DNA of 34,194 bases, taken from Spirochaetota bacterium. GTDB lineage: Bacteria; Spirochaetota; UBA4802; UBA5550. The position numbers and the translations under genes were made by a program. The stretch's first letter is position 1. Every line of letters starts with the position of its first letter. The notes beneath the pieces were generated by a model. The model saw only the letters and a program-made list of their open reading frames with translations, was not told where the DNA came from and ran no database searches. The stretch covers positions 1-34,194 of the forward strand of contig QKCL01000044.1 in assembly GCA_003246895.1 (NCBI GenBank), read 5' to 3'. Positions 4,526 through 34,194 of this stretch are shown here, piece by piece.

Positions 4526-6049
4526 TCATAGACTATAGTTCCTGTGCAGATTCTTGTACGAAAGTGCCTCCAGCAGATGTTTTCTGCATATATTCTCTGC
4601 ACCTTCTAAATCAGCAATGGTTCTCGCCACCTTAAGCACCTTAAAGTAGGATCTGGCAGAAAAAGACATTCCCGCCACTGCTTTCCTGAAAAATTTTTCA
4701 TCTTCAGAATTGAGTCTGCAATGCCTTTTAAGAAGAGCCTGCGACATTCTGGAATTATACCTCATACCGGTACCGCTAAACCGTTTCAGCTGTATTTCCC
4801 GTGCATTATGCACTCTTTTCAGAATTTCTTCCGATGATTCAGACAATAAATCACAGGCCAGATCCTCATAAGACACCCTGTTAACCAGAACCTCCATATC
4901 TATCCGGTCAGACACGGGGCCAGTTATCTTATTAAAATAATTGAGTCTTTTAAGAGATGAACACTTGCACTCGATATCATCGTCGAAGAGATGGCCGCAC
5001 TGGCATGGATTGCTTGCCGCAATGAGCATAAAATCCGATGGAAAAATTACGGTTCCCGAAGCCCTGGCCACTGTCACCTCATTGTCTTCAAGGGGCTGCC
5101 TCAGGGCCTGTATGACATTGTTCTTAAATTCAACAAATTCATCGAGAAAAAGCACTCCGTTATGAGCAAGAGAGATCTCTCCTGCACTTAAATTCGCCCC
5201 TCCTCCGACCAGCGCCACCTCCGATGAGGTATGATGTGGCGACCTGAACGGCGGCCTCCTCACCATGCCCTGCCCCTCCCTCAATATGCCCGCAACAGAA
5301 TGAACCATTGTAGTTTCTACTGAACTTTCCCAGTCAAGGTCGGGTAGAATGCCTGTTACCCGCTTTGCAAGCATGGTCTTACCTGAACCGGGAGATCCGT
5401 AAAGAAGTATATTGTGATGCCCTGCAGCTGCAATTTCAAGAGCCCTCTTTGCATTTTCCTGGCCCCTGACATCTGAAAAATCGGGTACCGCAGTTATAGA
5501 TTCAGACTTTACGCTTCCGTCATATTCAAAAGGAGGGTATTCATTGCGGAATACACTCTCCATTTCAGAAAAAAATTCAACGGCAAATACAGTCATTCCT
5601 TTTACTGCTGCTGCCTCTACTCCATTTTCCCTGGGAACAATAACTCTTTTGTGGCCAAGCCTGTAAAGTGCTATGACCATGGATATTACGCCTCTAACAG
5701 GTTTAATTCTGCCATCCAGTGAAAGTTCCCCAACCATTGCTATGGTTTCCACGGCAAGATCAGTCTGCCCCGTGGATCTGAGTATTGACATTGCAATGGG
5801 CAGATCAAAGTTCGGGCCTGCCTTCTTAAAACCCGCAGGTGCAAGATTGACAACATAATTTTTCGGAGGGAACTCATAACCTGAATTTTCAACTGCCGAA
5901 CGTATCCTCTCCCGGGACTCCCTGATTGTGGAATCAGGGAGTCCCACTATATTGAAACCGGGAAGCCCTTTCATTATGTCCACTTCCACTTCAACAGGAA
6001 CGGCTTCAACACCCTTTAATGCCAGGGATACAGTCTTTGAAAGCATCAT
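4526..6049 (-). CDS. comM: YifB/ComM-family Mg-chelatase-like AAA+ ATPase
   Basis: 507 aa, the usual length of the family. The N-terminal region (about 1-165) has the Lon-protease-like fold typical of YifB: KGLPGFNIVGLPDSTIRES, then NLAPAG and GPNFDLPIA. The AAA+ core has Walker A GSPGSGKT near residue 218, the chelatase-type segment RPPFRSPHHT, Walker B VLFLDEF, and the Cys-rich NPCQCGH loop with a second Cys pair (CKC). The C-terminal Mg-chelatase lid follows. ComM proteins are hexameric helicases that promote branch migration during integration of transformed DNA in some bacteria. No other competence gene is in the window. The ribosome-binding site AAAGGAG lies 3 nt before the first ATG and 6 nt before the second, so the second ATG (at 6046) may be used. 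The gene diverges from the trp operon. Confidence 0.93.
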   Translation of the reverse strand: MMLSKTVSLALKGVEAVPVEVEVDIMKGLPGFNIVGLPDSTIRESRERIRSAVENSGYEFPPKNYVVNLAPAGFKKAGPNFDLPIAMSILRSTGQTDLAVETIAMVGELSLDGRIKPVRGVISMVIALYRLGHKRVIVPRENGVEAAAVKGMTVFAVEFFSEMESVFRNEYPPFEYDGSVKSESITAVPDFSDVRGQENAKRALEIAAAGHHNILLYGSPGSGKTMLAKRVTGILPDLDWESSVETTMVHSVAGILREGQGMVRRPPFRSPHHTSSEVALVGGGANLSAGEISLAHNGVLFLDEFVEFKNNVIQALRQPLEDNEVTVARASGTVIFPSDFMLIAASNPCQCGHLFDDDIECKCSSLKRLNYFNKITGPVSDRIDMEVLVNRVSYEDLACDLLSESSEEILKRVHNAREIQLKRFSGTGMRYNSRMSQALLKRHCRLNSEDEKFFRKAVAGMSFSARSYFKVLKVARTIADLEGAENICRKHLLEALSYKNLHRNYSL

Positions 6050-6131: not shown

Positions 6132-6179
6132 TTGACAATATGCGTCATGTTTCTATTTATAGAAACATGACGCATATTG
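6132..6179 (+). promoter_or_regulatory. 44-bp palindrome (candidate operator) at the trp promoter
   Basis: Two arms of 21 bp (6136-6156 and 6159-6179) are exact reverse complements around a TT centre; each contains ATGCGTCATGTTTCTA or its complement. A TTGACA -35-like hexamer at 6132-6137 runs into the left arm. A -10 is not clear but would fall at the palindrome centre. The trpD ribosome-binding site begins 5 nt after the right arm. The position suggests an operator for a dimeric repressor of the trp operon, possibly also acting on divergent comM. If transcription starts upstream of it, it would form a very stable RNA hairpin instead. It does not resemble the E. coli TrpR operator, and no Trp-rich leader peptide is seen. 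Confidence 0.7.
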
Positions 6180-6196
6180 GAACAAGGAGACAAACC

Positions 6197-7213
6197 ATGG
6201 AAAAAGATAAAAAACAGGTTCTTTCAGCTCTTTTTGAGGGAAAATCCATATCTGAGCAGGATTCGGAATTCATTTTCGGTGAAATTTTCTCCGGAAATCT
6301 TTCGGATATTGAACTGAGCGCAATGCTTATTGCACTGAAGATGAAGGGTGAAACCCCGGAAGAAATAAGCGGTGCGGCAAAATCAATGAGAAAATTCTGC
6401 AACAAAATTGATGTGGACAGCCGTGCCGTTTTTGACAACTGCGGCACAGGCGGTGACAGCTCCGGCATGATGAACATCTCGTCATCGGTATCAATAATAC
6501 TCTCCTCTCTGGGAATTCCTGTTGCAAAACACGGCAACAGGTCAGTGAGCGGAAAAAGCGGGTCCACAGACTTCATGGAAGCCATTGGAATACCTGCTGA
6601 CCTGAAAGGAACTGAAGCAGAAAAATATTTCATGGACAAAGACTATATATATATGGCAGCTCCCAATTACCACCCGGCAATGAAATATGCCGTGCCAATC
6701 AGAAAGGAGCTGGCAACAAGAACTATTTTTAACTATCTGGGGCCACTCACAAACCCTGCAGGCACTAAACGTCAGGCAATAGGCCTTTTCAGCCCTGAAC
6801 TTCTCGATAAATATTCGCAAACCGCCAGAAACCTTGATTTTGAAAGGGTCATCGTATACTCCGGCATGGACGGCATGGATGAAGTGTCACCCTTTGAGAA
6901 AACAATGGCATGTGAAATACAGAACGGCGAGATCAGAAAATTTAAAATAGACCCTGCCGGATTTATCGGCACTTCCGAAGCTTCAGCAATTCCAATGCAC
7001 CTTTCTCCCCAGGAAAACGCAGAACTCTTTACAGAAACCATTTCGTCCGGGAAGGTAACAGGCGTCTCAAAACTTCTGGCAATGAACTCAGCACTTGCAC
7101 TGTATGCATATGATGAAAATTCAGACCTTAAAGAAAACTATGAGCGCTCCCTTGCGGCGATGACTGATGGAACCGTAAAGTCAAAAATAGACTCCCTCAA
7201 GGAAATACGATGA
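6197..7213 (+). CDS. trpD: Anthranilate phosphoribosyltransferase
   Basis: 338 aa from ATG 6197, chosen because AAGGAGA lies just upstream; the earlier in-frame ATG at 6140 is inside the palindrome. The enzyme transfers phosphoribosyl from PRPP to anthranilate, the second committed step of tryptophan synthesis. Family signatures are all present: DNCGTGGDSSGMMNIS (PRPP/Mg loop), AKHGNRSVSGKSGSTDF, and RTIFNYLGPLTNP. Length is normal and there is no fused glutamine amidotransferase (TrpG) domain. It is the first gene of trpDCFBA; trpE and trpG are not in this window. The stop overlaps the trpC start as ATGA, indicating translational coupling. Confidence 0.95.
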   Translation: MEKDKKQVLSALFEGKSISEQDSEFIFGEIFSGNLSDIELSAMLIALKMKGETPEEISGAAKSMRKFCNKIDVDSRAVFDNCGTGGDSSGMMNISSSVSIILSSLGIPVAKHGNRSVSGKSGSTDFMEAIGIPADLKGTEAEKYFMDKDYIYMAAPNYHPAMKYAVPIRKELATRTIFNYLGPLTNPAGTKRQAIGLFSPELLDKYSQTARNLDFERVIVYSGMDGMDEVSPFEKTMACEIQNGEIRKFKIDPAGFIGTSEASAIPMHLSPQENAELFTETISSGKVTGVSKLLAMNSALALYAYDENSDLKENYERSLAAMTDGTVKSKIDSLKEIR

Positions 7214-7980
7214 ACCGTTTTTCGCTCCAGGGCATGCGCAGCATAAAGGAAAATGAACTTCCGGAAATTGATTCAGTACTGGAAAGATTCCCCGAAAGAA
7301 AACGGAGGCATCTGCACATAAGGGACTTTTTGCGGGACAGCATAAATATAATTGCCGAAATAAAAAAGTCATCTCCTTCCCTTGGCGATATAAACAGGGA
7401 AACGGACATTCGTGACCAGATGAATATGTATATTGAAGGGGGGGCTTCAGGAATAAGTGTACTCACCGAAAAAAATTACTTCGGAGGTTCCCTTGAAAGT
7501 CTGGGGGAGATCTCTCCTGCCATCAATGTACCGGTACTGTGCAAGGACTTCGTCTATTTCGACAAGCAGATAGATGCGGCAGAAAAACTCGGCGCTGACC
7601 TTGTTCTTCTCATAGTGAAGTCATTGGGCATGGAGGAGATGGAAAGGCTTTATTTCAGGTCTCTTGAATCGGGTCTTACACCACTTGTGGAAGTCCATGA
7701 ATACAGCGAGTTTGAAAAGATAAGACACCTTAACCCCGAGGTTGTGCTTGTTAACATGAGAAACCTTGAAACTCTGGAAATACTATATGAGGTGGGGACA
7801 GAGACCCTGAAAAAAATACCAGATTCCGTAATCAGAGTAAGTGCAAGCGGCATAAACAGCAGCGCTGATATAAAAAACATACTGCGCAAAACCGGTGTAA
7901 ACAATTTTCTCGTGGGAACTTCACTCATGAAAAACGGTGACCCGGCCGAACTGCTTCGGGAGTTTAAAAATGTTTCTTAA
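7210..7980 (+). CDS. trpC: Indole-3-glycerol-phosphate synthase
   Basis: 256 aa TIM-barrel enzyme closing the indole ring from CdRP. Recognisable elements in order: EIKKSSPSLGDIN (phosphate and substrate Lys), ISVLTEKNYFGGS, VLCKDFVYF with the catalytic Lys, LGADLVLLIV, PLVEVHEYSE, and VNMRNL, which keeps the Asn of the usual IN-x-R-D/N-L motif. The usual beta-7 motif (S/A)ESGI reads SASGI here: the Glu matching Glu210 of the Sulfolobus enzyme, a substrate-binding residue, is replaced by Ala. The gene starts on the ATGA overlap with trpD and overlaps trpF by 11 nt. It is a stand-alone TrpC, not a TrpC-TrpF fusion. Confidence 0.93.
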   Translation: MNRFSLQGMRSIKENELPEIDSVLERFPERKRRHLHIRDFLRDSINIIAEIKKSSPSLGDINRETDIRDQMNMYIEGGASGISVLTEKNYFGGSLESLGEISPAINVPVLCKDFVYFDKQIDAAEKLGADLVLLIVKSLGMEEMERLYFRSLESGLTPLVEVHEYSEFEKIRHLNPEVVLVNMRNLETLEILYEVGTETLKKIPDSVIRVSASGINSSADIKNILRKTGVNNFLVGTSLMKNGDPAELLREFKNVS

Positions 7981-8602
7981 ATTCTGCGGATTCACTAGGG
8001 TGGAGGACGTGGAGTACGCGGCAGCACTTCCCCTTTCAGCAATGGGATTTATTTTCTACAGAAAATCAAAGAGATATATTACACCAGAGAGAGCCCGGGA
8101 ACTGGGAAGCATTCTCAAGGGAACAGATATTAAAAAAACGGGTATTTTCGTTGATGACAGTGTCGAGGAAATAAAAAGGATTGCAGATATTGCAGGCCTT
8201 GACATAGTGCAGATCTATGACCGGACAATGGAGCCTGAACTTTCAAAGGAGAGGCAGGTCATTCTCTGTCACAGAATTTCAGGCAGAGAAGACATGGACG
8301 AAATTCTTCCTCCAGAAATGAAGAAGAACCTGCTGCTATTTGACGCATACAGCGGAGACGGTTACGGCGGAACAGGCCATTCATTCGACTGGTCGCTTTT
8401 AAATGACTATAAGTACCTGGACAGGCTTATCGTTGCGGGGGGACTCAACAGCGGAAATGTCGGGGAACTACTGAGAACTGTCTCCCCTTACGGCATCGAC
8501 CTCTCCTCTGGAATAGAGGTTTCCCCCGGGATTAAGTCCAGAGAGAAAATTGACGAAATAATGAAGAAAATCAAGGAGGCCACAGATGGAAAGAGTGCCT
8601 GA
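7970..8602 (+). CDS. trpF: Phosphoribosylanthranilate isomerase
   Basis: 210 aa from ATG 7970. An upstream in-frame ATG at 7937 would overlap trpC by 44 nt and add residues outside the family, and the protein should begin MFLKFCG, matching the family K-I-C-G start with its catalytic Cys. Other marks are [20 protein letters not shown] (catalytic Asp and phosphate region), [11 protein letters not shown] and GIDLSSGIE followed by PGIK. The enzyme converts PRA to CdRP. The N-terminal half is divergent: the usual D-x-V-Q-L-H-G segment reads DIVQIYD. It overlaps trpC by 11 nt and trpB by 17 nt. Confidence 0.93.
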
Positions 8603-9767
8603 TAAAAACGGTTATTATGGTAAATTCGGCGGTAAATTTCTCCCCGAAACTCTCGTGCCTGCCCTTAAACAGATAGAGGAAAGCTACGAAAAATTCATAA
8701 ATGACACAGAAGCGCAGGCGAAACTCAATGACCTTCTGAAAAGATATGCGGGCCGCCCCACTCCAATTTATTTTGCAGAAAATCTTTCCAATCTACTGGA
8801 TGTGGAGATATACCTCAAGAGAGAAGACCTTGTCCACACGGGGGCGCACAAACTGAACAATGCCCTGGGACAGGCTCTCCTTGCGAAATACATGGGCAAG
8901 ACAAGGCTCATCGCAGAGACCGGCGCGGGACAGCACGGTGTTGCAACGGCAACATGCGCAGCCCTCATGGGCATGGAATGCGAAGTCTTCATGGGAAAGG
9001 TCGATGTCGACAGGCAGTCTCCCAATGTAAAAAGAATGAAACTTCTAGGGACAAAGGTTACTCCGGTTTACAGCGGAAGCAAGACCCTCAAGGATGCAAT
9101 AAATGCTGCCATGCAGGACTGGGTTGCAACTGTGCAGAATACACACTACATTCTTGGATCTGTTGTTGGTGCCCACCCATTCCCAATGATAGTGAGGGAC
9201 TTTCAGTCTGTAATAAGCAAAGAAGCTGTTCCTCAGTTCCTTGAAATTGCAGGGCGTCACCCGGACTGTGTGGTTGCTTCAGTTGGAGGAGGGAGCAACG
9301 CTGCAGGAATCTTTGCCAAATACCTTGAGGTTGAAGGAGTCAAACTCATCGGTGTCGAGGCAGGAGGACGTTCCAATAAAGACGGTGACCACAGCGCCAA
9401 ACTGAACTACGGCCGACCCGGAATCGTGCACGGAAACTTTACATACATACTCCAGACAGATGAGGGGAACCTCATGCCTGTACATTCTGTATCTGCAGGC
9501 CTCGACTATCCTGCTGTGGGTCCCGAACACAGTTATCTCAAGGACATAGGCGCCGCAGTATATGAAACCTGCTCAGACAGGGAGGCACTGGATGCATTTC
9601 AGGCACTCTGCAGACATGAGGGAATAATACCGGCACTTGAAAGCAGCCATGCCCTTGGCCATGTCATGGCACATAAAGAGAAATACAAAGGGCAGAAGGT
9701 TCTGATAAACCTTTCAGGCCGGGGCGATAAGGATATGCCTATTATAGAAGAGGAGCTGGGACTATGA
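8586..9767 (+). CDS. trpB: Tryptophan synthase beta subunit
   Basis: 393 aa, canonical TrpB1 type. It begins with the typical [20 protein letters not shown] segment. The PLP Lys lies in [13 protein letters not shown], followed by [14 protein letters not shown], the glycine-rich phosphate-binding GGGSNAAG, and GVEAGG. It condenses indole with serine in a complex with TrpA. A strong AAGGAGG sits 6 nt before the ATG, inside the end of trpF, so beta subunits are probably made efficiently. The stop overlaps the trpA start (ATGA), as expected for subunits made in equal amounts. Confidence 0.97.
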
Positions 9768-10504
9768 CACAATATAACGGATTCTATTTAATGGGAAACT
9801 ATCCCGACAGAGATACATTTATTGAAGCTGCAGCACAGGGTCTTCAGCACTTCGACTTTCTTGAGGTTGGAATTCCATTCAGCGACCCAATCGCAGACGG
9901 TACTGCAATTGCTGAGGCCGCACAAAAAGCACTGGACAGCGGTGTAAACCTTGCAGGCATACTTGAAAGCATAAAGGCGGTCAGAGAAAGAGTAAGTCCT
10001 GAAAAGGACATATATCTTATGACCTATGCGAATATAATATTCAACCACGAAGAGACTCTCAAGAGCGAAGAATTCAAGAAGCTTAATGTGAAGGGGCTCA
10101 TCGTACCCGATGTTCCATCAAGCGAAGACTTCTTCTTCACAGGAGAAAACGCCCTGGACGGCCTGGAGATAATCACATTTCTCACTCCTGAAACTGAAGA
10201 TGAAACAATAAAGAAAGCCTCGGGAAGGTCAAACTCCTTCATATACTTTATCTCAACACGTGGAATCACAGGCGGCTCCATGAAACTCGACAATGACACA
10301 ATGGCAAAAATAGACCTTGCAAAGAGTTCATCAACCTGCCCTGTTGTTCTTGGATTCGGGATCAGGGATTCCGATTCAGCAAAAACTGCACTTGAACACT
10401 GTGACGGATTCATAATGGGAACTGTGCTGATTCAGAAACTGAATGATAAAGGCCTTGATGGATTCAAAAAATTTACGGACGAGCTTTTCGGGGAGCTGGG
10501 GTAA
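9764..10504 (+). CDS. trpA: Tryptophan synthase alpha subunit
   Basis: 246 aa, slightly short of the usual 260-270. It cleaves indole-3-glycerol phosphate to indole, which passes to Trp[18 protein letters not shown] contains both catalytic acids (Glu of LEVG and Asp of PIADG). [26 protein letters not shown] and GFGIRDSD follow in family order. The shortening is mainly at the N-terminus ([14 protein letters not shown] instead of a longer helix 0) and does not touch known catalytic positions. It is the last gene of the operon; a bidirectional-looking terminator lies at 10685-10713. Confidence 0.95.
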
Positions 10505-10684: not shown

Positions 10685-10713
10685 AAAAACTCCGGGGATT
10701 CCGGAGTTTTTTT
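10685..10713. terminator. Bidirectional terminator between trpA and the RHH-like gene
   Basis: Stem AAAAACTCCGG (10685-10695) and CCGGAGTTTTT (10701-10711) with loop GGATT; a T run follows on the plus strand and the A run preceding it gives a T run on the minus strand. It can serve both the trp operon and the convergent gene at 10728-11003. Confidence 0.85.
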
Positions 10714-33738: not shown

Positions 33739-34194
33739 ATGCAAAAAATATGTCTTTTATGTATTACCGGATGGGCCATGTTTTTTCGGGGACAGTCAGA
33801 ATTCGTGAGCGGACAGTTTTATGGCTCCCGCAGCTCAGGCTCTGGCTGTTGGGAGTGTCCATTCCTCATTAAGGCATCGGAATGGCAGCCATGGGTCGAT
33901 TTGATGCAGTCATGCGTTAATTTAACCCAATGGTGCGTTAAATTAACTCTCGGGAGTATCAAAACGACTCTCCAGACCATGAATATTATGGTCCCGACCT
34001 TAAAATTTATGCTCTCGACCATGAAGTTGATACTCCAGACCATGAATCTGATGCTCTCGACCATGAATCTTATACTCCAGACCATGAATCTTATACTCAC
34101 GACCATGAATCTTATACTCACGACCATGAATCTTATACTCACGACCATGAATCTTATACTCACGACCATGAATCTTATACTCACGACCATGAAT
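33739..34194 (+). CDS. Open frame across the 21-bp array, running off the window
   Basis: A frame open from ATG 33739 to the window end (152 codons, no stop). It starts MQKICLLCITGWAMFFRGQ, with a weakly hydrophobic head, passes through a non-repetitive part with several Cys (GSGCWECPFL) and enters heptads such as TMNLILT. There is no clear ribosome-binding site. Because the repeat unit is 21 bp, all frames of the array tend to stay open: a minus-strand frame (33819-34190) reads MVVSIRF heptads. Either strand, or neither, may be translated. It is listed because the non-repeat part is also open. Confidence 0.25.
   Translation, partial: MQKICLLCITGWAMFFRGQSEFVSGQFYGSRSSGSGCWECPFLIKASEWQPWVDLMQSCVNLTQWCVKLTLGSIKTTLQTMNIMVPTLKFMLSTMKLILQTMNLMLSTMNLILQTMNLILTTMNLILTTMNLILTTMNLILTTMNLILTTMN
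33870..34194. repeat. 21-bp tandem repeat array, decaying leftward
   Basis: Unit GACCATGAATCTTATACTCA plus C. Five identical copies (starts 34080, 34101, 34122, 34143, 34164) run into the window edge with a partial sixth. Copies starting 34059, 34038, 34017, 33996 and 33975 differ progressively, and the 21-nt period is still visible at 33954, 33933, 33912, 33891 and probably 33870. The array continues beyond the window. Each unit equals seven codons. Confidence 0.93.

Follow-up and report, generated by a model that had tools for sequence, protein, structure and literature searches.

A promoter-overlapping palindrome at trp genes of Spirochaetota as the probable operator of a TrpR-family repressor

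The trp operon and its promoter palindrome

The window, the whole stretch of 34,194 nucleotides from a Spirochaetota bacterium that was analyzed, encodes the tryptophan operon trpDCFBA, and a long palindrome sits just 5′ of it. The features of this region are as follows.

6132..6137, plus strand: −35-like TTGACA, identified from the sequence, overlapping the left palindrome arm by 2 nt
6136..6179, no strand: 44-bp palindrome with 21-bp perfect arms around TT, identified from the sequence
6148..6167, no strand: operator core of 20 bp, TGTTTCTA-N4-TAGAAACA, the proposed TrpR site, conserved at relatives' Trp genes
6154..6159, plus strand: probable −10 TATTTA in the palindrome centre, spacer 16, proposed from the sequence and arranged alike in relatives
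6184..6189, plus strand: trpD ribosome-binding site AAGGAG, identified from the sequence
6197..7213, plus strand: trpD, anthranilate phosphoribosyltransferase, the first operon gene (Pfam PF00591, PF02885)
7210..7980, plus strand: trpC, indole-3-glycerol phosphate synthase (PF00218)
7937..8602, plus strand: trpF, PRA isomerase (PF00697)
8586..9767, plus strand: trpB, tryptophan synthase beta (PF00291)
9764..10504, plus strand: trpA, tryptophan synthase alpha (PF00290)
10685..10711, plus strand: intrinsic-terminator-like hairpin 3′ of trpA, identified from the sequence

Each of the two arms (6136-6156 and 6159-6179) spans 21 nt; they are 100% complementary and flank a TT centre. A sequence-only reading of the window had reported a 44-bp palindrome with error-free 21-bp arms around TT that overlaps a TTGACA hexamer, and both descriptions are accurate. 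Four nucleotides separate the palindrome from AAGGAG, and the probable trpD start is the ATG at 6197. The promoter elements likely place the trpD transcription start inside the right arm; no Trp-rich leader peptide was seen in the 17-nt gap between the palindrome and the start codon. The RNA fold predicted for the palindrome region is very stable compared with shuffled sequences (z = −9.1).

In a 451-kb sample of the same genome, from which the background count was drawn, only 24 perfect inverted repeats combine arms of 13 bp or more with a loop of at most 8, and the trpD palindrome and its counterpart at trpE rank among the longest of these. Elsewhere in the window, a perfect 14-bp inverted repeat with a 4-nt loop (5914-5945) lies inside a minus-strand comM/yifB-like (Mg chelatase) gene, and a tandem array with a 21-nt period and eight registers (33928-34179) occupies the window end.

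Operator copies in the genome and its relatives

The core, CATGTTTCTA-N4-TAGAAACATG (GTTTCTA-N4-TAGAAAC), has exactly one further copy in the genome, at G000:C51:7328-7351. This copy is a palindrome with 20-bp arms immediately 5′ of trpE, with trpG after it; the sequence-only reading had proposed a half-site search at these two genes. In the trpD and trpE copies alike, 11 nt separate TTGAC(A/G) from GTTTCTA, and the centre is T/A-rich and resembles a −10 element, reading TATATA at trpE. The second copy and the common promoter layout point to one operator shared by the two trp transcription units of the genome. At zero mismatches the half-site occurs only at the trpD palindrome genome-wide, and the trpE copy differs from it by three mismatches per half-site. 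The half-site search gives 37 hits vs 24 for a reversed-pattern control, so the matches with two to three mismatches elsewhere in the genome are taken as chance; the exception is the trpE copy, in which both half-sites are present. An Lrp/ACT-like gene (L022:2328-2942, assigned by eye) is found some 0.8 kb away from the trpE operator, with an orientation that points away from it. It was set aside as the regulator because trpR bears the site in relatives.

Across Spirochaetota, the same 18-20 bp core is found 5′ of trpE, trpD, trpB, trpB2, trpX (a Trp transporter), DAHP synthase and trpR. Beyond this phylum it occurs in a few MAGs: individual ones bearing the labels Holophagaceae, Aminicenantes, Calditrichaceae, Mcinerneyibacteriota and PVC group carry it before trpR or trpB, exactly or with one to two mismatches. 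If up to three mismatches are allowed, a threshold at which weak matches include chance ones, 28 of 59 relatives have the core. The trpB genes behind operators in relatives share 46-56% identity with the window trpB where the two align. In two pairs of loci (L039/L071 and L041/L077) the site is followed by a TrpR-family gene and then trpB2. The site precedes trpR itself, 20-90 nt upstream and with at most two mismatches, in about two thirds of 30 relatives, where it often takes the form of two adjacent copies with an 18-bp period. A site at a regulator gene, which the sequence-only reading had suggested looking for, is thus present in many relatives and absent from this genome. Three loci (L113, L114, L174) have a TrpR-type operator 5′ of trpX-like tryptophan ABC transporter binding-protein genes; the TrpX scores of the trpX-like proteins lie below the curated cut-off.

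Sites with at most one mismatch in the loci examined precede trpE, trpD, trpB, trpB2, trpR or class II DAHP synthase in 82 of 100 cases, a tally that includes loci fetched for carrying trpR. The unbiased test is an exact-pattern scan of 246 Spirochaetota genomes, which returned 54 sites in 37 genomes, with gene context assigned by hand. TrpR-positive genomes, defined by a PF01371 match over its cut-off, hold 50 of these sites. All but two of the 50 (the G021 site and one G121 site) precede Trp genes, with trpE, as in L098-L100 and L312, and the trpX transporter counted. Each of the four sites from TrpR-negative genomes falls within an ORF. An exact site is present in 33 of 122 TrpR-positive vs 4 of 124 other genomes (Fisher p = 7e-8, kinship ignored). 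It is absent from the remaining 89 of the 122, where the operator must therefore be more degenerate or different. Two exact or near-exact copies also stand 5′ of a 198-aa protein without a Pfam match (L095/L313; G121:C10:115256), possibly a new regulon member. The core is kept at relatives' Trp genes and is not scattered, so the test that the sequence-only reading had proposed for itself gives a positive result.

When 89 sites are oriented and compared, information content is high between −10 and +9, drops sharply beyond ±11 and amounts to about 0.1-0.2 bit at positions 12-13. Positions outside the search pattern are also conserved, namely T at −10 and T/A at −2/+2. The conserved operator thus comprises only about 20-22 bp of the palindrome; the description "much longer than most operators" holds for the 44-bp palindrome but not for this element. 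At trpE/trpD operators, TTGAC precedes the core by 10-13 nt in 20 of 35 cases, and the distance is 31-32 nt where a tandem unit intervenes; in other relatives (L098-L100), TATAAT is directly 5′ of the core. Both arrangements, with the operator after TTGAC or after TATAAT, are predicted repressive positions. In addition, relatives (among them loci L058, L059, L045, L046, L049, L043 and L119) have short trpL-like reading frames 3′ of the operator that contain runs of two to four Trp codons, which suggests that these relatives use attenuation too.

The probable regulator and alternative readings

The candidate in this genome is an 89-aa TrpR-family protein (G000:C37; L065:5964-6233, minus strand) whose PF01371 match has E = 3.5e-16 and 60.9 bits against a Pfam cut-off of 27. 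Its TIGR01321 (TrpR) score is 49.4 bits, below the curated cut-off of 67.25 that relatives (56-61) also stay under, and the protein is therefore filed as a TrpR-family repressor working like TrpR and not as a certified TrpR equivalog. Across the genome's protein and relatives, TIGR01321 (49-61 bits) outscores the YerC/HisR model (25-31 bits) by 25-30 bits. In alignment with E. coli TrpR, with residue numbering and roles taken partly from PMC9413887, T44, R54, R69, T83, R84 and G85 are kept, residue 88, a Ser of the tryptophan pocket in E. coli, is changed, and residues 79-81 change from I-A-T to L-C-K. The recognition helix accordingly reads SLCKITRG here vs GIATITRG in E. coli, and the recovered TrpR proteins bear SLC.[IV]TRG. 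This changed helix goes along with an operator consensus unlike that of E. coli.

The palindrome is very probably a promoter-overlapping operator of a TrpR-family, tryptophan-dependent repressor that recognizes the core, with outer arms that probably stem from template switching. A dimer of the repressor would bind the palindrome, the recognized element being the central 20 bp, and TGTTTCTANNNNTAGAAACA is the putative target of the lineage's TrpR with L-tryptophan. Once it has bound tryptophan, TrpR would cover the −10 in the middle of the palindrome and keep RNA polymerase out, so that trpDCFBA is turned off at the window site and trpEG at the second copy. The outer ten or so base pairs of each arm fall outside the conserved recognition sequence and would be palindromic most likely through template switching seeded by the operator. 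The site, its copies, the genes behind them, its conservation and its co-occurrence with TrpR are direct observations. From sequence we infer binding, repression and the role of tryptophan as co-repressor. Weighing against this reading are the TIGR01321 score under the cut-off, the location of this genome's trpR away from trp genes, the lack of a good site at that gene, the 89 TrpR-positive genomes that have no exact site, and the change at residue 88.

The sequence-only reading had offered two other ideas, a tryptophan regulator of unknown identity at a site not of TrpR type, or a long RNA hairpin near the ribosome-binding site. A hairpin in the trpD leader acting on translation, mRNA stability or attenuation would fit the stable predicted fold and the outer arms that, in 12 of 89 sites, change sequence but keep pairing; the Trp-codon leader peptides of relatives also indicate that RNA-level control exists in the group. 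However, with the conserved TTGACA at the left edge and the −10 in the centre, transcription would start inside the right arm and leave the left arm untranscribed, so classical repression is implied and a hairpin disfavoured. The other 77 of the 89 operators lack paired outer arms, distant relatives place the operator 3′ of TATAAT, and the core sequence itself is kept, as expected of a protein site. The hairpin reading is very improbable, and as the main role it is set aside on account of the likely promoter geometry.

That a tryptophan regulator acts at this promoter agrees with the present results, but the evidence points to a TrpR-family protein, the most likely regulator, and the statement that the site is not TrpR-type is probably wrong, given the conserved sites at trpR itself and the co-occurrence with TrpR; only the consensus differs from that of E. 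coli. A different, non-TrpR regulator deserves thought since TrpR binding is a prediction, since the genome's trpR is unlinked to its trp genes and lacks a good site itself, and since four TrpR-negative genomes hold an exact match. Those four matches, however, all fall in coding sequence, and many relatives carry the site at trpR; TrpR-family operators are moreover known as 20-bp palindromes (PMC9413887). Such a regulator is very improbable. The family member HisR was rejected because the sites stand at Trp genes, not his genes, and their consensus is not that of HisR.

Near-perfect long palindromes can be mobile repeats. This general precedent is all that speaks for a mobile or scattered repeat without a trp role, and none of the present findings supports it. 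Only two copies of the core exist in 3.57 Mb, both at trp promoters, and across genera the core is conserved but the flanks are not. Copy count and placement contradict this reading, and we give it next to no credence.

Known TrpR-family systems and the extended arms

Reconstructions of TrpR regulons come mainly from gammaproteobacteria, and other classes of Proteobacteria are reported to lack TrpR (PMC5343134). The operator consensus of E. coli and gammaproteobacterial TrpR is TGTAcTnGTnnACnAgTACA (PMC9413887), and its regulons are described in PMC5343134. The spirochaete system shares with it a small TrpR-family repressor, a 20-bp palindromic operator overlapping the promoter, targets among trpE, trpR, trp biosynthesis, transporter and DAHP synthase genes, and, in relatives, a combination with Trp-codon leader peptides. 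In contrast, the two consensus sequences have only the outer TGT...ACA and the 20-bp frame in common. The inner half-site is TTCTA in the spirochaete operator and AcTnG in the gammaproteobacterial one, and the recognition-helix residues aligned to 79-81 differ as noted above. An E. coli-type match based on CTA/TAG spacing was rejected, the spacing being CTA-N4-TAG here vs CTA-N6-TAG in E. coli. Also unlike the gammaproteobacterial system, tandem sites abut at 18 bp, the distribution covers Spirochaetota and some other phyla, and the gene set includes trpB2 and trpX.

HisR (YerC), the TrpR-family histidine repressor of Firmicutes, has the consensus cacTTTAnnnnnnTAAAgtg and his targets (PMC9413887). 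It likewise belongs to the TrpR family and has a 20-bp palindrome with a lineage-specific consensus, but it replaces R69 and T83, both kept in spirochaete TrpR, whose profile score favours TrpR. In the literature searched, which left RegPrecise and subscription journals outside, no description of a spirochaete TrpR operator motif was found. The element is a predicted TrpR-family operator whose consensus differs from the one already known. It would mark a regulon of TrpR-family type that uses an operator code of its own in Spirochaetota and, apparently, in some other phyla. For many uncultured bacteria, it would allow predictions of how trp, trpX and DAHP synthase are controlled. The paired change of recognition helix and operator offers a natural experiment on repressor-operator co-evolution.

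Arm length among the 89 sites is two-peaked: most end at 12 or less, and 12 reach 14-22, with outer sequences that vary between sites yet stay palindromic. At least seven extra pairs occur in 11 sites vs 0.3 expected from permuted flanks. Eight of the 12 long-arm sites fall among the 13 sites of one genus subgroup that includes this genome, and the long arms of L043 are explained by tandem half-sites. Perfect stems can arise and persist through template switching (PMC8794818), a process that also operates at E. coli quasipalindromes (PMC7202029). We prefer the view that the outer arms may reflect such homogenization during replication; they may also have a function of their own, for which the lineage enrichment leaves room.

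A similar pattern is observed at CIRCE, the HrcA operator, in the same lineages, where 14 of 84 sites have at least eight extra pairs vs 0.8 expected. HrcA is an unrelated repressor with a different core sequence and different target genes, but its palindromes here likewise extend well past the known half-sites with varying sequence. More tentatively, and with the odds somewhat against it as a whole, we propose a TrpR regulon with an undescribed operator in several phyla, together with TrpR and CIRCE operators that, in this spirochaete lineage, repeatedly seed lengthening into long perfect palindromes, the arms co-evolving by template switching so that compensatory changes would reflect mutation and not RNA structure. 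Such arm extension would mean that paired changes in inverted repeats alone are no proof of RNA structure. An RNA role for the CIRCE extensions may nonetheless exist. Many relatives have CIRCE sites with palindromic, sequence-variable extensions, and in this genome a CIRCE lies inside a 57-bp palindrome with 26-bp perfect arms (L207:7230-7286; G000:C1:47230-47286).
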